Of a stretch of DNA of 62,888 nt, positions 7,056-57,427 are shown one piece after another. Position 1 is the stretch's first letter; each line of letters starts with the position of its first letter. Source of the DNA: Spirochaetae bacterium HGW-Spirochaetae-2 (GTDB taxonomy: Bacteria > Spirochaetota > Spirochaetia > Sphaerochaetales > Sphaerochaetaceae); NCBI GenBank assembly GCA_002839355.1, contig PGXW01000039.1, forward strand, positions 1 to 62,888, written 5' to 3'. The notes below the pieces were generated by a model that was given only the letters and a program-made list of their open reading frames with translations, did not search any database and was not told the origin of the DNA. Position numbers and translations under genes: made by a program.

Positions 7056-7156
7056 GGCAGACTCCTCATGGTTCGAAGGTACGTAAGAACCGGAGGGTTG
7101 TCAATCCAAAGAGGGCGTGGTAACTTCTCTCAGTGTCAAGACGACAGGAGGTACCA

Positions 7157-27537: not shown

Positions 27538-27741
27538 ACAATTCCTTTACATAGTTGCATAAAAAGGTGATACTGCAACTATACCGGGACGGCTGGACAA
27601 TGGCAACGCCCAGGTGATCTGTAACAGCATAAGCTTGTGGCTGAGCTTGGAGCGGATCGGACGGAGGGCATCTGTTCGATAGGCCCAAGAAAAGTAAAGA
27701 ATAGGATGTTACAGATTACTGAGCTCTGTGGGAGGAATCGA

Positions 27742-28329
27742 ATGAAACTGAAAGGACGATGGATCGTACAATTGCTGATAGCAATACTTGTGGTCATAGT
27801 GGGCATTTTCATACTTGCCCGGCAGGACCTTTTCATACAGGTCTTTATCATTGTCTTGGGAATCGTAGCGATCATAACGGGAATCGGTTCGCTGGCGACC
27901 ATGAACAGGTATTCGTTCGGACGGTTCAACCATGCGACGACGCTGGTGAAGGGAGTGTTGGGTATCATAATCGGTGTTTTGGCTGTAATCATGCCCTTGG
28001 CGACCGGAGAGGCAATGTGGACGATCATCATCTATGTCCTGGCCGCCCAAATGGTGATATCAGCCATTGTCATGATCATCGATGCGTTCGCCGTTCAGGC
28101 AGCCGGGTTCCCCGCGGCCCCGTTGGTCACCGAAGGACTGGTATCGCTCGTATTCGCCGTGATGTTGTTCCTGTTTCCCCGTAGCGTGGCGGACTTGCTG
28201 GTCATAATCCTTGGCATAACGGTGATCGTGGTGGGACTCACACTTGCCCTGGTGGCTTTCATGGCCCGGAAGAAACGTACGGGTGTGACGGTCGAGGCGG
28301 CCGATGTCGAAATCGATGAAACGCCATGA
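27742..28329 (+). CDS. HdeD-like membrane protein (DUF308)
   Basis: A 195-residue protein made almost entirely of six hydrophobic segments in three tandem pairs, each pair resembling the DUF308 repeat (WIVQLLIAILVVIVGIFIL, then VKGVLGIIIGVLAVIMP, then VTEGLVSLVFAVMLFLFP). HdeD in E. coli is linked to acid resistance at high cell density; the molecular role is unknown. The ATG at 27742 is chosen because GGAGG lies seven bases upstream. The C-terminus is a charged acidic tail. It ends six bases before the -35 box of the his promoter. Confidence 0.82.
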   Translation: MKLKGRWIVQLLIAILVVIVGIFILARQDLFIQVFIIVLGIVAIITGIGSLATMNRYSFGRFNHATTLVKGVLGIIIGVLAVIMPLATGEAMWTIIIYVLAAQMVISAIVMIIDAFAVQAAGFPAAPLVTEGLVSLVFAVMLFLFPRSVADLLVIILGITVIVVGLTLALVAFMARKKRTGVTVEAADVEIDETP

Positions 28330-28334
28330 TGCTC

Positions 28335-28363
28335 TTGACACAAAAGATTGCCTTCGGTAGTGT
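28335..28363 (+). promoter_or_regulatory. his operon promoter
   Basis: A perfect -35 TTGACA (28335-28340) and a weaker -10 TAGTGT (28358-28363) are 17 bases apart. The predicted start of transcription falls at or next to the leader-peptide ATG at 28370, so the leader would be translated from a leaderless message. No Shine-Dalgarno precedes that ATG. Confidence 0.6.
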
Positions 28364-28369
28364 GGATTT

Positions 28370-28420
28370 ATGAAAACAGTATTGGCACTGCATCACCATC
28401 ACCACATCTCGGAATCTTGA
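28370..28420 (+). CDS. hisL: his operon leader peptide
   Basis: A 16-residue open frame, MKTVLALHHHHHISES, with five consecutive histidine codons at 28391-28405. It sits between a sigma-70 promoter and a perfect intrinsic terminator directly upstream of hisG, exactly like E. coli and Salmonella hisL (seven His). Scarcity of charged His-tRNA would stall the ribosome over these codons and favour the antiterminator. The frame is too short to be found by ordinary gene calling. Both its content and its position support it. Confidence 0.9.
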   Translation: MKTVLALHHHHHISES

Positions 28421-28472
28421 TGGAATGCGTGTGCGTTGACAGAGTACTTGACGACTCCGCATTTCGCGGAGT
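28385..28472 (+). promoter_or_regulatory. histidine attenuator: alternative RNA hairpins
   Basis: Four RNA arms can form mutually exclusive structures. Arm 1 (28385-28393, overlapping the first His codon) pairs with arm 2 (28425-28434) over 9 bp with one bulged base. Arm 2, from 28422 to 28429, can instead pair with arm 3 (28458-28465) over 8 bp with one G-U. Arm 3 overlaps the 5' side of the terminator stem (28454-28460). A ribosome stalled on the His run covers arm 1, frees arm 2, and thereby blocks the terminator. Confidence 0.82.
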
Positions 28473-28480
28473 TTTTTTTT
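28454..28480 (+). terminator. his attenuator terminator
   Basis: A perfect 7-bp GC-rich stem (ACTCCGC at 28454-28460, GCGGAGT at 28466-28472) with a 5-base loop is followed by nine T (28472-28480). It stands 19 bases upstream of the hisG ATG and after the hisL stop, so it ends transcription before the structural genes when histidine is plentiful. Confidence 0.92.
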
Positions 28481-28498
28481 ACCCTGAGGAGGGCTTGC

Positions 28499-29336
28499 AT
28501 GGATACACGATTGAGGATCGCGGTACAGAAAAGTGGACGGTTGAGTGAGAAATCGTTGCAGATCATGTTCCGATTCCAGGTTGCTCAAGGAAGAGGCTGA
28601 GAATTTTCCCATCGAATTCCTCTACCTGCGTGACGACGATATTCCACGGTATGTGCACGATGGAGTCGCCGATATCGGCATTGTCGGCCGCAACGAGCAC
28701 GATGAGCAGAACCTTCCGCTGGAGGTATTGCGCGACCTCGGCTTTTCCAAGTGCCGACTTTCCATTGCGGTTCCACAGGGATTTGCCTACGATGGCCTGA
28801 AATCGCTTGAAGGCAAGCGGATCGCGACCAGTTATCCCGGTATCCTCGCACGCAAGCTCGAAGAAGCGGGTGTGGATGCCCGGATCTACGAGATCTCCGG
28901 TTCGGTCGAGATAACCCCCTCGATCGGTGTTGCCGACGCTATCTGCGATTTGGTGAGTACCGGAGCCACCTTGGTGAGCAACGGGTTGCAGGAAGTTGAA
29001 GTGATTTACCGTTCTACGGCAGTCATGCTCGTGCACCCCGGATTGGTCGAAGCAAAGCGCGTTATCCTCGACCGCCTGTTGCTGCGGATCGATGCCGTGA
29101 TGCGTGCCGACGATTACAAGTACATCATGTTCAACCTTCCCAAGGAACATCTGGACCAGGCGGCAGCTATCATTGGCGGTATGAAAAGTCCTACAGTCAC
29201 TCCACTTCTGGACAGCGGTTGGTGTGCAGTCCAGACGGTTGTCCGGGAGGAACGGTTCTGGGATGTCCTGGAGCAGTTGAAGAATTTGGGGGCACAAGGA
29301 ATTCTGGTTACGGCTATCGAAAAGATGGCCGACTGA
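28499..29336 (+). pseudogene. hisG: ATP phosphoribosyltransferase, frameshifted
   Basis: HisG catalyses the first step of histidine synthesis. From the ATG at 28499 (GAGGAGG upstream) the frame reads MDTRLRIAVQKSGRLSEKSL, the true HisG start, but hits a stop near 28600. The rest of the protein continues in another frame from about 28572 (SRLLKEEAENFPIEF, then YLRDDDIPRYV) to 29336. Compared with HisG proteins, about ten residues between KSLQI and SRLL are missing, so this is a small deletion with a frame change rather than a single-base error. The C-terminal part includes the PII-like feedback domain of the long HisG form. As written, no full HisG can be made. Confidence 0.85.
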
Positions 29337-29351
29337 AGGGAGGATAGCCCG

Positions 29352-30674
29352 ATGGGATTGATGGAGCGGATAATCGATCCGAAACCCGAGGAGATCGCAA
29401 GACTGTTGGCCCGACCGGCGTTGGAGGCGGAGTCTGTCGCCTCGGTCGTTGCCGAGATCATCGAAGAGGTTCGGCTTCATGGCGACTCTGCCCTGCTGGC
29501 CTACGCCGAGCGGTTCGACCATGCGCGGTTGGAATCGTTGACGATTCTTCGATCTGCCATGGAGTCTGCCAAAGGAAGTCTGGATGAAAAGCTGCGGAGT
29601 GCCATCGATCGTGCCAAGCGGAATATCGAACGGTTCCATGCAGCGCAAAAACCGAGGGACGAACAGGTGGAGACCGAACCGGGAGTGTACTGTTGGCGCA
29701 AAAGCATCCCATTGGAAACTGTCGGCATCTATGTGCCGGGCGGAAGTGCCCCGTTGTTTTCGACAGTCCTCATGTTGGGTATTCCGGCACAGTTGGCCGG
29801 ATGCAAGCATGTGGTTCTGGCCACACCTCCCAGACCAGATGGAACGATCCACCCAGCGATATTGTATGCCGCATCCATAAGTGGCGTAACGAAAATCGTG
29901 GCCGCGGGGGGAGCTCAAGCTATCGCCGCACTTGCCTACGGCACAGAAACCCTTCCCGCAGTGGACAAGATATTCGGTCCCGGGAACCGTTTCGTCACCG
30001 AAGCCAAACAGCAGGTTTCAGCCCGCCGATGTGCCATAGACCTTCCGGCCGGTCCGTCCGAAGTCATGGTGGTGATCGATGCCTCCAGCAATCCCCTGTT
30101 TACGGCGGCGGATCTTCTCAGCCAGGCTGAACATGGTCCCGATAGCCAGGTGATCGTTGTAGTCAGCGCCGATGATGTCCAGAGCGGCCACCAACTGGTC
30201 GATGCCGTCGAGCGGGAACTCGAAGCTCAATTGGCATATCTGCCACGCAAGGAATTGGCGCTCCTTTCACTACAGCATGCCAAGGCTGTGGTCGTTACGG
30301 ATATCGAGTTGTTGCCACGTGTGATCAATACCTATGGTCCGGAACACCTCATTGTCAATACTGCCGACTTTGCGCTGGTCGAGAACCAGGTGAGGAACGC
30401 CGGCTCGGTATTTCTCGGCGAATGGACATGCGAGTCGGCAGGTGATTATGCTTCGGGTACGAACCACACGTTGCCTACCGCAGGATGGGCCCGTTCATAC
30501 AGCGGTGTCTCCCTGGACAATTTCTATAAGAAGATCACCTTCCAGCGAATCACCAGATGCGGTCTGCAATCCCTGGGGCCGGTGATAGAGACCATGGCGA
30601 AAGCCGAATCGTTGGAGGCCCATGCCCAGGCTGTACGGGTACGATTGTCAAGCATCAAAGGGGAGCAAGAATGA
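29352..30674 (+). CDS. hisD: histidinol dehydrogenase
   Basis: This oxidises histidinol to histidine in two NAD-dependent steps with a zinc site. The 440-residue product is of normal length. Family segments are YVPGGSAPLFSTVLMLGIPA, AGGAQAIAALAYGTET, DKIFGPGNRFVTEAKQ, DLPAGPSEVMV, LLSQAEHGPDSQ and TYGPEHLIVNT, with the zinc-site His in SGTNHTLPT. It starts 15 bases after the hisG stop with GGGAGGA before the ATG. The hisC ATG overlaps its stop. Confidence 0.96.
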   Translation: MGLMERIIDPKPEEIARLLARPALEAESVASVVAEIIEEVRLHGDSALLAYAERFDHARLESLTILRSAMESAKGSLDEKLRSAIDRAKRNIERFHAAQKPRDEQVETEPGVYCWRKSIPLETVGIYVPGGSAPLFSTVLMLGIPAQLAGCKHVVLATPPRPDGTIHPAILYAASISGVTKIVAAGGAQAIAALAYGTETLPAVDKIFGPGNRFVTEAKQQVSARRCAIDLPAGPSEVMVVIDASSNPLFTAADLLSQAEHGPDSQVIVVVSADDVQSGHQLVDAVERELEAQLAYLPRKELALLSLQHAKAVVVTDIELLPRVINTYGPEHLIVNTADFALVENQVRNAGSVFLGEWTCESAGDYASGTNHTLPTAGWARSYSGVSLDNFYKKITFQRITRCGLQSLGPVIETMAKAESLEAHAQAVRVRLSSIKGEQE

Positions 30675-31753
30675 GCGGATACACTATCAAGGAACTCATG
30701 CGGCCGAACATTGTCTCGTTGATTCCTTATTCATCTGCCCGCAATGAATTTACCGGGACAGCAAAGGTGTTTCTGGATGCCAACGAGAATTGGCGTGACT
30801 TTGTCGGGAACGTGGGGAGGAACCGGTATCCCGATCCACAACATAGGGATTTGAAACGTTCGATTTCCACGGTCATGGGGTTGCCGGAGAAGAGCCTGGT
30901 CCTGGGAAACGGCAGCGATGAGATGATCGATGTACTGTTCAGGATCTTCTGTGTCCCGCACAAGGACAAGATATTGCTGATGTCGCCCACCTATGGAGCT
31001 TATCAGGTGTTCGCCGATATCAACGATATAGGGGTATCACATTGCCCCTTGAAGACAGATTTCTCTCTCAACCTACGACATATGGATACCGTATGCCATT
31101 TGGTGAACAACGGAACCCCGGAATCAGGCATGCACAAGATGCTCTTCATCTGCTCTCCCAACAATCCGTCCGGAAACAGTTTTCCCTTGGACCAGATTGC
31201 GACGATTGCCCAGAGGTTCAAGGGAATCACCATAGTCGATGAGGCCTATTTCGAATTCTCGGGCAAGGAATCGGCGATCACCCTCATGCGGGATTGTCCC
31301 CGTCTGGTTGTGCTCAGGACCCTCTCCAAAAGCTGGGGGCTTGCGAATGCACGGGTGGGAATCGCGGTCGCTCCACCGGAAATTGTCGAGGCCATGCACA
31401 AGGTCAAGTATCCCTACAACCTCAGTGGTATCGCACAGGAGCTCGCGATCGAAGCCTTGGAGCACGCACAGGAAGTGTACCGGAATATCGAGGGGACCAT
31501 ACAGGAACGGGAGCGTGTCGCCCAACAGCTGCAGAAGTTTCCTTTTGTGAAAGAGGTTTTTCCCAGCGATGCGAATTTCCTGTTGGTCCGGGTACTCGAT
31601 CCGGATGGACTGTGCTCCTCCCTGCGGGAGAGGGGAATCATAATCCGGAACCGTTCCACCGTACGCGGCTGTTTCGGCTGTGTACGGATCACCATAGGCA
31701 ACAGAAGTGAAAACGATTCGCTGCTCAAGGCGATGGAAGAATTGGAGGGTTGA
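30671..31753 (+). CDS. hisC: histidinol-phosphate aminotransferase
   Basis: A PLP enzyme converting imidazole-acetol phosphate to histidinol phosphate. The 360-residue protein has the typical start (ANENW near 37), LGNGSDEMIDVLFRIF (PLP-binding loop), SPNNPSGN, IVDEAYFEFSG, and the PLP lysine in RTLSKSWGLANARVG (about residue 220), plus RGCFGCVRITIG near the C-terminus. The ATG overlaps the hisD stop (ATGA). It is in the his operon. Confidence 0.95.
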   Translation: MSGYTIKELMRPNIVSLIPYSSARNEFTGTAKVFLDANENWRDFVGNVGRNRYPDPQHRDLKRSISTVMGLPEKSLVLGNGSDEMIDVLFRIFCVPHKDKILLMSPTYGAYQVFADINDIGVSHCPLKTDFSLNLRHMDTVCHLVNNGTPESGMHKMLFICSPNNPSGNSFPLDQIATIAQRFKGITIVDEAYFEFSGKESAITLMRDCPRLVVLRTLSKSWGLANARVGIAVAPPEIVEAMHKVKYPYNLSGIAQELAIEALEHAQEVYRNIEGTIQERERVAQQLQKFPFVKEVFPSDANFLLVRVLDPDGLCSSLRERGIIIRNRSTVRGCFGCVRITIGNRSENDSLLKAMEELEG

Positions 31754-31755
31754 TC

Positions 31756-32772
31756 ATGGAGCAATCGAAGCGTCGGGATGCGATACTGGCAATTGCATTG
31801 GATGGACCTGTTGTCGCAGCGGATTCGCTGACCTCATTTGCCGACATCATCTGGACCCCGGGTGTGTTCAGGGGCCTTGGGCACCTGGCGTCGGAAGGCA
31901 TATTTCAGCTTGCAATACTATTGCAGCGGGAGAAAGAGGCCTTCTATGCCGTGGAAGTTCTGCAACGGGTCCTCGATACCCTCGAGAACGAAGGTATTCC
32001 CGTGGCGCAGGTCGTATACGATGACCAACTCCCCTCGATCGGCTCCCCCGGTCCTGGTCCGGACGCCGAGCATTCCTGGATCATCGCTTCGGATCCCCAA
32101 GTGGTTGATGCCAATGGCGGGATGCAACCCCTGCCGTTCACCGGATGGCCCGATGTGGTGGCTAAGCTTTCCGGTTCAACCGGTAAGCTTCCACGCTCGG
32201 CCCGATTCGAACGCACGACAAAGGAAACATCCATACACATGGAACTGGATCTCGACGGCACCGGAAAAGGGTCCATTGCCACCGGATTACCATTTTTCGA
32301 CCATATGTTGCATCAGGTCGCTCGTCATGGCCGCATTGATCTTACACTTCAGTGCAAAGGTGACTTGGAAGTCGACGAACACCATACGGTGGAAGATGTG
32401 GCGATTGTGCTTGGACAAGCGGTTGCACGGGCCTTGGGCGATAAGCGGGGAATCGGCAGATACGGATTCGAACTGTTGCCGATGGACGAATGCTTGGCAC
32501 AGGTGGCCCTCGACTTCTCGGGTAGGGCTTGGTTCGTATGGGATGTGGTATTCACGCGTGAAATGGTGGGGACGTTCCCCACGGAATTGTTCTCCCATTT
32601 CTTCAAATCGTTCAGCGACGAGGCCAAGTGCAATCTCCATATGCAGGTAAGCACCGGGAATGCGCATCATCAGGCCGAGGCCCTCTTCAAGGCCTTCGGC
32701 CGGGCACTGCGACATGCTGTCTTCCGCTACCCCGGGAACGACGACTTGCCTTCCACCAAAGGAGTGTTGTGA
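31756..32772 (+). CDS. hisB: HisB: IGP dehydratase with degenerate phosphatase domain
   Basis: The C-terminal part (about 150-338) is an intact imidazoleglycerol-phosphate dehydratase with its metal histidines (FFDHMLHQVARHG, DEHHTVEDV, HFFKSFSD, NAHHQAEALFKAFGR). The N-terminal 150 residues align with the histidinol-phosphatase half of bifunctional E. coli HisB but are degraded. Motif I reads AIALDGP instead of xDxDGT, losing the nucleophile Asp. The TNQDG motif II is gone, and the CxH...CxC zinc loop is absent. The phosphatase activity is therefore probably lost while the fold persists. The ATG at 31756 follows GGAGGG by six bases. Confidence 0.93.
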   Translation: MEQSKRRDAILAIALDGPVVAADSLTSFADIIWTPGVFRGLGHLASEGIFQLAILLQREKEAFYAVEVLQRVLDTLENEGIPVAQVVYDDQLPSIGSPGPGPDAEHSWIIASDPQVVDANGGMQPLPFTGWPDVVAKLSGSTGKLPRSARFERTTKETSIHMELDLDGTGKGSIATGLPFFDHMLHQVARHGRIDLTLQCKGDLEVDEHHTVEDVAIVLGQAVARALGDKRGIGRYGFELLPMDECLAQVALDFSGRAWFVWDVVFTREMVGTFPTELFSHFFKSFSDEAKCNLHMQVSTGNAHHQAEALFKAFGRALRHAVFRYPGNDDLPSTKGVL

Positions 32773-33383
32773 TGTCCTCCATCGTTATCGTGAAATACAA
32801 TGCAGGCAATATCCGTTCGGTGCTATGTGCCCTCAACAGGTTGGGTCGCGATGCCACAGTCAGCGATGATCCGAAAGTCTTGCGCAATGCCTCCCGCGTA
32901 ATTTTCCCCGGGGTGGGTGAGGCGTCGTCGGCCATGCGGTACTTGCGACAGGTGCATCTTGACGAAGTGTTGCTGTCCTTGCAACAACCATTCCTCGGCA
33001 TCTGTCTTGGCATGCAGCTCATGTGCAGCCGCAGCGAAGAGAACGATACCGATTGCCTGGGCATATACGAGAGTCCGGTCGTACGGTTTACCGAGGAGCC
33101 GGGATTGAAGATTCCGCATATGGGGTGGAATACCCTTGGTCTCGGTGACGATCCGCTTTTTGCGGGAATAACCGATCCTGCATGGTGCTACTTTGTCCAT
33201 TCGTATTATGTGCCCGCTTCCAAGGAGACAATAGCCACGTGCACCTATGGGCAGAACACATTCAGCGCGGCTCTTGGAGCTGGAAATTATCGCGGAGTGC
33301 AGTTCCATCCGGAGAAAAGCGGACCGTTGGGCGAGCGGATATTGAAGAACTTCCTGGAAATTTCGGAGGACCGGCTATGGTAG
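32772..33383 (+). CDS. hisH: imidazole glycerol phosphate synthase, glutaminase subunit
   Basis: A class I glutamine amidotransferase that supplies ammonia to HisF. The 203-residue product shows the start IVKYNAGNIRSVLCALNRLG, the nucleophile in GICLGMQLM (Cys78), and the His/Glu pair in GVQFHPEKSG (His179, Glu181). Its ATG overlaps the hisB stop (TGATG), and its 3' end overlaps hisA by seven bases. Its partner HisF is damaged in this window. Confidence 0.95.
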   Translation: MSSIVIVKYNAGNIRSVLCALNRLGRDATVSDDPKVLRNASRVIFPGVGEASSAMRYLRQVHLDEVLLSLQQPFLGICLGMQLMCSRSEENDTDCLGIYESPVVRFTEEPGLKIPHMGWNTLGLGDDPLFAGITDPAWCYFVHSYYVPASKETIATCTYGQNTFSAALGAGNYRGVQFHPEKSGPLGERILKNFLEISEDRLW

Positions 33384-34120
33384 CGATACCCGCGATGGAT
33401 ATTATCGACGGATCGTGTGTCCGCTTGCGCATGGGCGACTATGCCAGCAAGCAGGTGTATGGTACCGACCCCACTGAAATGGCCAAGATGTTCGCTGATA
33501 CCGGTCTGTCACGACTGCATCTCGTCGACCTTGACGGAGCAAAGGCCGGGCGGGTCCGGAACCTGAAGGTCCTTGAACGGATAGCCGGAGAAACCGACCT
33601 GGTGATCGATGTCGGGGGAGGCCTGCAGTCCCGTCAGGATTTCGATGCGGTATTTTCGGCGGGTGCGGCGATGGCGACCGTAGGATCCTTGGCTGCACGC
33701 AACCGTGAGCTGACGCTCTCCTTGCTCCAGACCTTTGGTCCGAAGCGGTTGGTGTTGGGTGCTGATTGCCGGGAGGGAAAGATCGCGGTATCAGGCTGGG
33801 AGACTACGACGGATCTGGCGGTGAATGACTTTGTCGCCACCTATCTGGCGGCAGGGTTTCGCACCGTGGTCAGTACCGATATTTCCCGGGACGGGATGAT
33901 GAATGGTCCTTCGGTGGAGCTGTACGAAGCATTGCTGGATGATATGGCAATACGGGAACTGTCCATGGAACTGGTCGCAAGTGGTGGGATCCGCAGCTTG
34001 ACCGATCTCGATATCTTGGCGGAGAAGGGACTTTCCGGGGCGATCATTGGGAAGGCGATGTATGAAGGGGCGATCGAACCGAAGGCCCTCGCCGCGTGGC
34101 AAGCTTCCCAGGGGGTATGA
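33377..34120 (+). CDS. hisA: ProFAR isomerase
   Basis: This TIM-barrel enzyme isomerises ProFAR to PRFAR. The 247-residue protein has the catalytic Asp8 in IPAMDIIDG, phosphate loops [10 protein letters not shown] and [11 protein letters not shown], and the second acid Asp130 in LVLGADC, with [14 protein letters not shown] following. GGAGGA lies six bases before the ATG, within the end of hisH. The damaged hisF starts one base after its stop. Confidence 0.95.
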
Positions 34121-34121
34121 A

Positions 34122-34870
34122 ATGCTGGCTAAACGAATAATTCCCTGTCTCGATGTCAGGGATGGCAGGACGGTCAAGGGTGTCAACTTTGTGAATTTGC
34201 GCGATGCTGGCGATGCCGTCGCGAGTTGACTTTTCTCGATATCACCGCAACGGTCGAGAATAGGGGAACCTTCACATCGTTGGTACGACGTATTGCCGAT
34301 GTCATCGATATTCCGTTCACCGTTGGCGGAGGAATACGGAATGTGGCCGATGTCGGGGCCCTGTTGGACGCGGGTGCGGACAAGATCTCCATAAACAGCA
34401 TGGCGGTGAAGGATCCCAGGATCATCGATACGCTGGCCAAGGAATTCGGCAGCCAATGTGTGGTCTGTGCGATCGATGTCCGTTCCAACCACTCTTTCGA
34501 TGTCGATGGGATGCTCGGGTGGGAAGTCTATGTGGCCGGAGGTAGGATACCAACAGGCATGGAGGCCCTTTCCTGGGCGGTGGAAGCCGAGGACCGTGGC
34601 GCCGGGGAGATCCTGCTCACATCCATGGACCATGATGGTACGAAAGGTGGCTTTGCGGTCGAACTGACGCGACGTTTCAGCGATCGTGTCCGTATTCCGA
34701 TAATCGCATCGGGTGGGGCTGGAGCGATGGAACATTTTACCGAAATCTTCACATCCGGCGGTGCGGATGCCGCATTGGCTGCCTCGATTTTCCATTTTCA
34801 CGAGATAGACATTCCCGAACTGAAGATTTTTCTGGAGAAACATGGTATACCTATACGCCTGAACCGTTAG
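34122..34870 (+). pseudogene. hisF: imidazole glycerol phosphate synthase cyclase, internal deletion
   Basis: HisF makes imidazole-glycerol phosphate using ammonia from HisH. The frame from 34122 reads a normal start ([20 protein letters not shown], with the catalytic Cys/Asp region) up to LRDAGDAVA and then a stop near 34228. The rest continues in another frame from about 34223 ([15 protein letters not shown]) to the end, with normal phosphate loops (GGGIRNVADVGALL, ASGGAGAMEHF). About twelve residues that normally join GDPV to ELTFLD (helix 1 and the start of strand 2) are absent, a deletion near 34 bases. The protein cannot be made as written, and even reframed the barrel would lack helix 1. 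Confidence 0.87.
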
Positions 34871-34886
34871 GTTGGAGGGAGTTTTG

Positions 34887-35495
34887 ATGCAGGTAGATTT
34901 TAATAAGGGTAATGGACTGGTACCGGCAATCGTACAAGATGCGGTGACACGTCGTGTCCTCATGCTCGGGTATATGAATGAGGAGGCTTTGACCATTACG
35001 CAAGAACGTGGCCTGGTGACTTTTTATTCGCGCACCCGACAAAAATTGTGGACGAAGGGCGAGACGAGTGGAAATTATCTTACGGTCCGAGAGATTGTCG
35101 CCGACTGCGACAACGACACCCTGCTCATAAAGGCGATCCCATCCGGCCCGGTCTGCCATACAGGTAGCGACACCTGCTTCGATGAAACCAACGATCCCGA
35201 GCTCATGACTTCAAGCGAATTCCTGCTCTATCTGGAGGAAGTCATCCACGACCGTCGGGAGCATCCGATCGAGGGTTCGTATACCAACCACCTGTTCTCA
35301 AGAGGCATCAACAAGATAGCCCAGAAGGTTGGAGAGGAGGCTGTCGAGCTCGTCATAGAGGCGAAGGACGACAACAAGCCTCTTTTCCTTGGCGAAGCCG
35401 CGGATCTCATGTACCACATGCTGGTGCTCCTTGCTCAGAAGAACATCAGGCTGGACGAGGTCATCGAAGTTCTCAAAGGGCGCCACTCCCGCTAG
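34887..35495 (+). CDS. hisI: bifunctional phosphoribosyl-AMP cyclohydrolase / PR-ATP pyrophosphatase
   Basis: This carries out steps two and three of histidine synthesis (HisIE). The 202-residue protein has the HisI domain first (MLGYMNEEAL, then FYSRTRQKLWTKGETSGNYL, then the metal-binding CDNDTLL and CHTGSDTCF), followed by the HisE domain (about 110-202) with the pattern HPIEGSYTNHLFSRG, KVGEEAVELVIEAK and EAADLMYHMLVLL. The ATG at 34887 is taken because GGAGGGAG lies upstream; an in-frame TTG at 34872 is less likely. It is the last his gene. Confidence 0.94.
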   Translation: MQVDFNKGNGLVPAIVQDAVTRRVLMLGYMNEEALTITQERGLVTFYSRTRQKLWTKGETSGNYLTVREIVADCDNDTLLIKAIPSGPVCHTGSDTCFDETNDPELMTSSEFLLYLEEVIHDRREHPIEGSYTNHLFSRGINKIAQKVGEEAVELVIEAKDDNKPLFLGEAADLMYHMLVLLAQKNIRLDEVIEVLKGRHSR

Positions 35496-48656: not shown

Positions 48657-48704
48657 ATGTGTATCATTATTGGGAACTATACACATTGAATCTGGTAATG
48701 TCAA
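48657..48704 (-). promoter_or_regulatory. vapBC promoter and operator
   Basis: On the minus strand, TTGACA (48704-48699) and TATAGT (48681-48676) are separated by 17 bases, a near-consensus promoter. A perfect 8-bp inverted repeat (ATGTGTAT at 48657-48664, ATACACAT at 48679-48686) with a 14-base spacer covers the -10 box and the start region. It is a plausible VapB binding site for autorepression. Confidence 0.7.
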
Positions 48705-55160: not shown

Positions 55161-57427
55161 ATCTTCTCTCCAACCGGTACGCTCACGGATACCAGAGTTC
55201 CCTGAGTTTGGGGGTAGATGTCAATGGACCCCCCGAATTCCTTGACAATGCCATAGGAAATCGAAAGACCAAGCCCAGTCCCTTTTCCCGCGGACTTGGT
55301 GGTGAAGAAGGGATCGAATACGCGGCTTAGGAGATTATCTGCGATTCCCGAACCATTATCAAGCACCTCAAGGATGATGGAGTTATCTCTCCTGAAGGTC
55401 GCGACGACTATGGACAAGGGTAGCGGGTCCGGATTGTTCCTGTCGTTATCATGCCTGTTCCGTTCCTCAAGCGCATCCTTCGCGTTCGAAATCAGGTTCA
55501 ATACGACCTGTTCGTATCTGAAGGGATTGCCGCATAATTGCGGAAGATTTTCGTCAAGCTGTGATCTGATATCGATTCCGAGGGTAGCCAACTGCACACC
55601 TATGAGAGAAATGGCGTTCTGCACGGATTGGTTTATCGAGAAGAGTATGTTGTATTCCGCACTCGACTCGCGGGCGAAAATCCGTACATGGTCGATAATC
55701 CGCCTCGTCCTTGCGATATCTCCGGATATGCTATCGATTTTCTTTTTGAAATAGTCGATGTCGATCGAATTGTCCGCGTATCGGTTGTACACGTTCTGGA
55801 TGGCGAAGGAGATGGAGTTCAGGGGTTGATTGATCTCATGCGCGATTCCTGCGGCAAGTTCTCCGATGGCAGCCATGCGGGACTGCTGGTAAGCCAACTC
55901 TTCTTGTTTCTTGCGACTGAGGACCTCGCTCTCAACCCGTTTCTCGAGTGTTTCATTCATTTTCTTCAGCGCTGTCTCCGCCTCCAGTTTGTCAGTGATG
56001 TCAGAGGAAATCCTGAGGATGTTCCTGATATGGTTGTTCTCATCGAGTATCGGGATCGAGAGGTGTTCCCAGCACTCATTTTTCATGCCCGATCCGTTGT
56101 CACGCATATAACAGATACTTTTGGAGGTCATGTGTTTCTTTCGGAAGGTCTCCTCGAGCAGGTCCCTCTCTACCTTGAAAAAGCCGTTATAGGAGGTTGC
56201 CTCAGAGAGTTGCCTGCCGATGATCTCTCCTTCTCCGGTTGTTTTCGCCCGGGCATTCGCCCACAATATCCTCGTTTCATGGTCAAGGTAGAAGACTATG
56301 CCCGGAAACCCGTCGATGATTGCCCGCAGTATCGTCTCCCGTTCTCGGAGATTCGCGATTATTTGGTTTATCGCTTTGATTATCGCTCTGAAATCAACGC
56401 CTGCTTCGTTCACATTGCCCCTATAATTCAAGTTGCCCGAAGTAATTTCCTTGCTGATCCGTTTGATCTGTTCGACCACACCCTGCAAAGGCCGAACCAG
56501 ATACCGCCTGATGTAGAGGAAGAGCATCAATACGATCGATGTGATGGTGATGATGGTCAAACCGACAAACAGATCGCGCATGTTGTTGATTTGTTCGGCA
56601 ATGCTGATACGGCATAATTCCACCTGGAAGAAACCAGCCACATTCCCTTGGAAATCATTGAAAGGGAGGATTCCCACACTGTAATCCTTCCCTTTCGGAG
56701 TCAACCAATACGAATCTCCCAACTCGATCTGCCGTATCTCATCAATGCTGGGTATATAGGAGGGGATGGACTCTGTGGATGAAAATTGAGAAAAGGTATT
56801 GTTTCCCGTCAATTCGAAACTATGGAAATCGCCGCAATACCGATCGGTGATCTTTTCTAAGAAACGCAGGAAATCCATACCGAACTCTATCGATCCGATG
56901 AATTCTCCATTTTTGAATACCGGCGTCATTACCCGAAGGCTGAACCCCTCTCTTCCCTTTTCAATCCCCCGCAATTCCTCGTGTTGTTCAATCATTGCCA
57001 TGACCATGGGTCTGATAGTTGTCAAATCCTCATCATCGTATTCAAGTTCTGGATTGTGGACCCTCAGAATCGACTTGCCTTCAGAGGAATGGATGTGATA
57101 CCGGAACACCTTGTCTCTAAAAAGTTCATATTCAGGAATAAGATGGCGATACAGCCCGTCCCGATCCTTTCGGGTAATCATGTCTTGGACTTCCGGATCG
57201 GAGGCTATCCTTTTCAGGAGTATAGACACATACTCCAACTCATCCTCCATCTCCCATTGGATGATGTGGAAGATACGCCGGAAATTCTCGTCCTCGCTGA
57301 TGGCAAAGACGCTTTTCGTGGTGTTCTGGACAATGAAGAAGAGCGGTATCAGCAGTGCTGGGAGTATTATAAGCACCATGATGACTGATTTTGTTTTGAA
57401 CGATAGATTTTTCACCATGTACCGCAT
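55148..57427 (-). CDS. sensor histidine kinase with dCache and PAS domains
   Basis: A membrane sensor of about 759 residues. It has one transmembrane segment (about 15-35), an extracytoplasmic double-Cache region (about 40-275), a second segment (about 278-300), a HAMP-like linker, a PAS domain (about 365-490), and a kinase core with the phosphorylated His in AAGIAHEINQPLNSISFA and an ATPase part with N-box NLISNAKDALEER, DNGSGI and GKGTGLGLSI. DctB/FixL-like in type. The start is uncertain (ATG 57427 or 57418; no strong Shine-Dalgarno). It phosphorylates the regulator whose gene overlaps its 3' end. The signal is probably a small extracellular ligand. Confidence 0.88.
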   Translation of the reverse strand: MRYMVKNLSFKTKSVIMVLIILPALLIPLFFIVQNTTKSVFAISEDENFRRIFHIIQWEMEDELEYVSILLKRIASDPEVQDMITRKDRDGLYRHLIPEYELFRDKVFRYHIHSSEGKSILRVHNPELEYDDEDLTTIRPMVMAMIEQHEELRGIEKGREGFSLRVMTPVFKNGEFIGSIEFGMDFLRFLEKITDRYCGDFHSFELTGNNTFSQFSSTESIPSYIPSIDEIRQIELGDSYWLTPKGKDYSVGILPFNDFQGNVAGFFQVELCRISIAEQINNMRDLFVGLTIITITSIVLMLFLYIRRYLVRPLQGVVEQIKRISKEITSGNLNYRGNVNEAGVDFRAIIKAINQIIANLRERETILRAIIDGFPGIVFYLDHETRILWANARAKTTGEGEIIGRQLSEATSYNGFFKVERDLLEETFRKKHMTSKSICYMRDNGSGMKNECWEHLSIPILDENNHIRNILRISSDITDKLEAETALKKMNETLEKRVESEVLSRKKQEELAYQQSRMAAIGELAAGIAHEINQPLNSISFAIQNVYNRYADNSIDIDYFKKKIDSISGDIARTRRIIDHVRIFARESSAEYNILFSINQSVQNAISLIGVQLATLGIDIRSQLDENLPQLCGNPFRYEQVVLNLISNAKDALEERNRHDNDRNNPDPLPLSIVVATFRRDNSIILEVLDNGSGIADNLLSRVFDPFFTTKSAGKGTGLGLSISYGIVKEFGGSIDIYPQTQGTLVSVSVPVGEKICEN

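Follow-up and report, generated by a model that had tools for sequence, protein, structure and literature searches.

Attenuators of histidine genes that depend on a leader peptide are known from Proteobacteria and some Firmicutes, and leaderless attenuators are known from Actinobacteria and Sinorhizobium. Among the Firmicutes they have been placed in the Bacillus cereus group, the Peptostreptococcaceae and the Erysipelotrichales (PMC9413887), and at hisS and hisZ of bacilli (PMC2965389). Leaderless leader peptides have been described for trpL in Sinorhizobium meliloti (PMC7298713) and for leuL, trpL, ilvL, metL and thrL in Streptomyces lividans (PMC8079986). A search of open-licence papers returned no report of a his attenuator or a leaderless attenuator in a spirochaete, and no report of a leaderless His leader in any organism.

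The window (the whole stretch of DNA analysed, 62,888 nucleotides) belongs to a spirochaete close to the Sphaerochaetaceae. Its his operon is very probably controlled, as in related spirochaetes, by ribosome-mediated transcription attenuation via a leaderless leader peptide; this assignment is made from the sequence, and each sequence feature tested marks the element as a leader-peptide transcription attenuator. A sequence-only reading had already described the -35 box and a leader of 16 codons, five of them for His at 28391-28405, which was correct to the base. Its arm pairings 1:2, 2:3 and 3:4 and the nine-T tail were borne out by sequence and RNA folding, with the terminator stem at 28453-28473 and the T run at 28472-28480. 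Absent from it were the -10 box 6 nt from the leader ATG, the predicted leaderless character of the leader, which is the most unusual feature, and a frameshift in hisG. The features of the locus are as follows.

28335-28340, plus strand: -35 box TTGACA, identical to the consensus, read from the sequence
28358-28363, plus strand: -10 box TAGTGT, separated from the -35 box by a 17-nt spacer and ending 6 nt before the leader ATG
28370, plus strand: predicted transcription start, the A of the leader ATG, from promoter spacing
28370-28420, plus strand: leader peptide ORF of 16 codons, MKTVLALHHHHHISES, with ATG at 28370 and stop codon TGA at 28418-28420
28391-28405, plus strand: His run of five consecutive codons, CAT CAC CAT CAC CAC, read from the sequence
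28385-28393, plus strand: arm 1, which pairs with arm 2 and overlaps the first His codon, from RNA folding
28421-28434, plus strand: arm 2, of which 28425-28434 pairs with arm 1 and 28422-28429 with arm 3
28453-28465, plus strand: arm 3, the 5' arm and loop of the terminator, of which 28458-28465 pairs with arm 2
28453-28480, plus strand: intrinsic terminator (arms 3:4), with stem-loop 28453-28473 and T run 28472-28480
28488-28493, plus strand: Shine-Dalgarno sequence of hisG, GAGGAG, read from the sequence and lying outside the terminator hairpin
28499-29336, plus strand: long-form hisG, with which the operon begins; a 23-nt deletion near 28565-28580 disrupts its frame
29352-35495, plus strand: hisD, hisC, hisB, hisH, hisA, hisF and hisI/E, the remainder of the hisGDCBHAFIE operon

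A short ORF with consecutive codons for the regulated amino acid thus lies between the promoter and hisG. Five consecutive CAY codons occurred in none of 100 dinucleotide shuffles of the window; the window itself contains one other such stretch, at 56541-56555 (minus strand). The gene of a DUF308 membrane protein (27637-28329) ends just before the his promoter, and, judging by sequence only, several relatives share such a gene end upstream of hisG.

By RNA folding, helix 1:2 joins 28385-28393 with 28425-28429 and 28431-28434, while helix 2:3 consists of 8 bp between GGAATGCG (28422-28429) and CGCATTTC (28458-28465), and the antiterminator reads GGAAUGCG:CGCAUUUC over the same positions. The antiterminator and terminator helices are mutually exclusive, arm 1 is close to the control codons while arm 2 lies at the stop codon, and the intrinsic terminator stands ahead of the first structural gene. 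The fold of the leader reached a z-score of -2.3 relative to shuffled sequences, 5 of 200 of which folded equally well. When a ribosome was made to mask the His codons, the antiterminator state was calculated at -15.1 kcal/mol and the terminator state at -13.0 kcal/mol. When the masking extended up to the stop codon, the terminator remained the sole predicted state.

These parts suggest the following sequence of events, in which the behaviour of the ribosome and the response to histidine are deduced from the arrangement. Transcription would begin with the A of the leader AUG, and the ribosome would therefore have to initiate on a 5'-terminal AUG without a Shine-Dalgarno sequence. With charged His-tRNA the ribosome would reach the stop codon and cover arm 2, and the 3:4 terminator would form. 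If no ribosome were present, helix 1:2 would form and the result would again be termination. If His-tRNA were short, the ribosome would stall on the five His codons and cover arm 1, leaving arm 2 to pair with arm 3. With helix 2:3 formed, RNA polymerase would read through into hisGDCBHAFIE.

Among named relatives, the nearest are Spirochaetales metagenome bins and Sphaerochaeta species; the earlier reading had considered his control of this kind noteworthy if the lineage was a spirochaete, and it is one. A His-run leader and a terminator precede hisG in 23 of 24 named Spirochaetales loci. Among 297 genomes drawn from across the class, 45 have a close HisG (E of 1e-136 or better), of the long type, and in 44 of them a short ORF containing a His run, plus a terminator, was present upstream of hisG; the sole exception, G266, has a close HisG without the leader. 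Together with the loci found earlier, the draw extends the element to 19 genera in 5 families. All 44 leaders analysed have a hairpin with a T run. The peptide varies between relatives (MNSLFAHHHHHHILTL, MKTIRTLHHHLFGFNQL, MERAKRHHHSLSES), while the His run and the arms are kept and the position of the run is fixed relative to arm 1.

Long HisG proteins that are more distant occurred in 12 genomes, 11 of which were inspected, and only G312 had a His-rich short ORF. There, at positions 218-295 of locus L188, hisG is preceded by a leader MNKAVLHLHIHHSHKSTRMGDVLVL that has a consensus -35 box and is accompanied by a terminator; the HisG of this distant spirochaete is of another kind, and the leader is perhaps an independent case. 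Short His-rich ORFs, often ending in HHFHHSS, were also seen 120-220 nt before hisG in many Bacteroidota (Cytophagales and others), namely at L059, L062, L065, L071, L076, L079, L093, L102, L110 and L111. Six of these loci were scanned against Rfam and matched no family. The Bacteroidota ORFs may possibly represent a separate family of His attenuators.

A MAFFT alignment of the 44 leaders was set aside, as arm 2 was out of register between clades, and therefore an alignment-free swap test and a sub-alignment of 12 sequences were used. Complementarity of arms 2 and 3 was stronger than with a shuffled arm 2 in 42 of the 44 leaders (mean z -1.67). In the swap test, carried out on 34 representatives with distinct arm 3, pairing energies averaged -12.5 kcal/mol for own arms versus -9.3 kcal/mol for swapped arms, and none of 20,000 permutations reached the true pairing; relatedness of the sequences inflates both the shuffle and the swap statistics. 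The 12-sequence alignment had 95.8% of its cells paired, as against 27-65% in controls with slid partners, and its double-change cells numbered only 3. Compensatory helices across clades included UGGAAUGCG:CGCAUUUCG, CGGGAUGCG:CGCAUUCCG, CUAAGUGG:CCGCUUAG and AUCUAGGC:GCCUAGAU. For L025, L027 and L040 the predicted 2:3 pairing was no better than chance. Taken as a set, the sequences indicate that the competing arms are conserved, co-vary and are under selection. The search of relatives for co-varying arms and His runs upstream of hisG that the sequence-only reading had proposed thus found both, and its view that ribosome stalling controls the his genes is the best reading of a His run, terminator and antiterminator arms that are conserved and co-vary in relatives.

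Transcription by RNA polymerase generally begins some 7 bases past the -10 hexamer. Because the -10 box at this locus ends 6 nt before the ATG, the expected +1 falls on the A of the leader ATG. Among 57 distinct leaders, all of which have a -35 box of TTGAC followed by A, C, T or G, the distance from the -10 box to the start codon was 6 nt in 41, 7-10 nt in 10 and 19-35 nt in 6; L167 has a GTG start at the same spot. The promoter scan was blind to this spacing, and the choice among several in-frame starts carried a small bonus for a spacing of 5-9. A scan of the first 26 leaders without the bonus agreed once the upstream in-frame ATG was taken. While hisG start codons have a Shine-Dalgarno sequence, the leader starts that abut a promoter mostly do not. 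Four leaders with a long UTR were scored, of which L023, L024 and L052 have a Shine-Dalgarno sequence and L027 has none. Judged by sequence only, the window leader has its predicted +1 on the start codon and no Shine-Dalgarno sequence. The -10 spacing predicts the start site, short of proof; were transcription to begin 1-5 nt further upstream, the RNA would have a very short UTR.

Genome-wide scans, which were pattern searches only, gave 39 occurrences of TTGACA-N16-18-TANNNT-N5-8-ATG versus 4 of the reversed pattern, and 19 versus 6 when the last gap was 9-12. The ATGs abutted by promoters include the starts of apparent glmS, alaS and rnhB genes. Because of the count of 39 versus 4 and these starts, leaderless starts look normal in this genome. 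Thirty promoter-abutting starts were scanned for other leaderless attenuators; several belonged to short ORFs, but a terminator-like T run came after none of them, so by that pattern the his leader is the only one of its kind in this genome. The window contains two further consensus promoters abutting an ATG, at 7067-7104 and 48665-48704, both on the minus strand. Judging from translations, one of the abutted ORFs is endonuclease IV-like and the other probably belongs to a VapB/VapC-type pair.

The same His attenuator might have an ordinary short 5' UTR, with transcription starting a few to tens of bases upstream, and not be truly leaderless. The start site is only predicted, 6 of the 57 leaders have a distance of 19-35 nt, and a weak GGA precedes the ATG of the window leader, all of which would suit this explanation. 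However, GGA-TTT-ATG leaves too little room for a Shine-Dalgarno sequence and overlaps the region predicted to be untranscribed, and a consensus -35/-10 pair abuts the ATG at 6-10 nt in 51 of the 57 leaders, at exactly 6 nt in 41. An ordinary UTR is thus unlikely. It is still less probable, and indeed very improbable, that the switch acts on translation by hiding or freeing the ribosome-binding site of hisG with no termination of transcription. The alternative folds do sit just before hisG, and PMC9413887 describes translational variants of leader-peptide attenuators, but a G+C-rich hairpin with a nine-T run is present here, hairpins with a T run recur in 44 of 44 leaders, and the hisG Shine-Dalgarno sequence at 28488-28493 is outside the hairpin.

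Control by a T-box or by a protein-binding (HisR-like) leader, with the His run incidental or part of a metal-binding peptide, is scarcely credible at this locus. In many Firmicutes, his genes are under T-box or repressor control (PMC9413887). An Rfam scan of the window, however, gave no family at the gathering score, T-box included, and the same held for T-box and other families in 20 related or comparison loci; the His run, moreover, keeps its position relative to arm 1 while the remaining peptide varies. Eleven spirochaete relatives matched no Rfam family, RF00514 included. The one Rfam hit in the leader to outscore RF00514, Hrs1 on the minus strand (21.7 versus 56.4 bits), was rejected as the reverse complement of the terminator.

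The genes hisD, hisA, hisF and hisI/E were assigned by Pfam, and hisC, hisB and hisH were named from their translations. The reading frame of hisG starts with ATG 28499, shifts after about codon 22 and closes after 33 codons at the stop codon 28598-28600, and the downstream portion lies in the frame of 28545-29336. The 23 nt missing here are present in relatives, including L003 of the same genus, and the genome has only one hisG match. Because hisG is frameshifted, the function of the operon in this genome is uncertain. Either a genuine mutation or a fault in the assembly could account for the deletion; in the former case the operon of this strain may have lost the ability to make histidine, though the attenuator is intact.

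Beyond this genome, histidine synthesis is probably controlled across a spirochaete lineage of at least 19 genera and 5 families by an attenuator that depends on leaderless initiation, in which the ribosome would load on the 5'-terminal AUG just as this leaves RNA polymerase. Because of this mode of loading, the switch would sense the capacity for leaderless initiation besides His-tRNA. Leader-peptide attenuation of his genes would thereby be extended to spirochaetes, in about 20 genera, and be coupled to leaderless translation starts. The system offers a natural setting for asking how early a ribosome on a 5'-terminal AUG can still control transcription, and the relatives with a longer UTR and a Shine-Dalgarno sequence are built-in natural comparisons. 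The leaders can also serve as the seed alignment of an RNA family absent from Rfam.

Among spirochaetes, the available part of PMC5243855 reports many leaderless transcripts in Leptospira interrogans, with about 440 mRNAs having UTRs under 10 nt; Leptospira is a distant lineage, and that part describes no attenuator. The comparison with known His attenuators in the sequence-only reading was incomplete in leaving out the Firmicutes cases. As far as the available parts of PMC9413887 and PMC2965389 describe them, these resemble the spirochaete element in placing a run of three to five His codons upstream of his genes, with attenuator, terminator and antiterminator helices after the run; they belong to another phylum and have no reported leaderless start. 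As predicted for the present leader, the leaderless leaders of S. meliloti and S. lividans are transcribed from the leader ATG, lack a Shine-Dalgarno sequence and carry a short ORF with many codons for the amino acid whose biosynthetic, transport or synthetase gene follows. They lie in other phyla and concern amino acids other than His, and their starts were mapped, whereas that of the present leader is predicted. The enterobacterial his attenuator (RF00514) has the same His-run peptide, competing 1:2, 2:3 and 3:4 helices, intrinsic terminator and complete operon with hisG first. No sequence relation to it was recognised, the window leader scoring 15.4 bits and falling outside a family with a gathering score of 49, and it differs from the spirochaete element in that the promoter of the latter abuts the leader start codon and so would make the leader leaderless.
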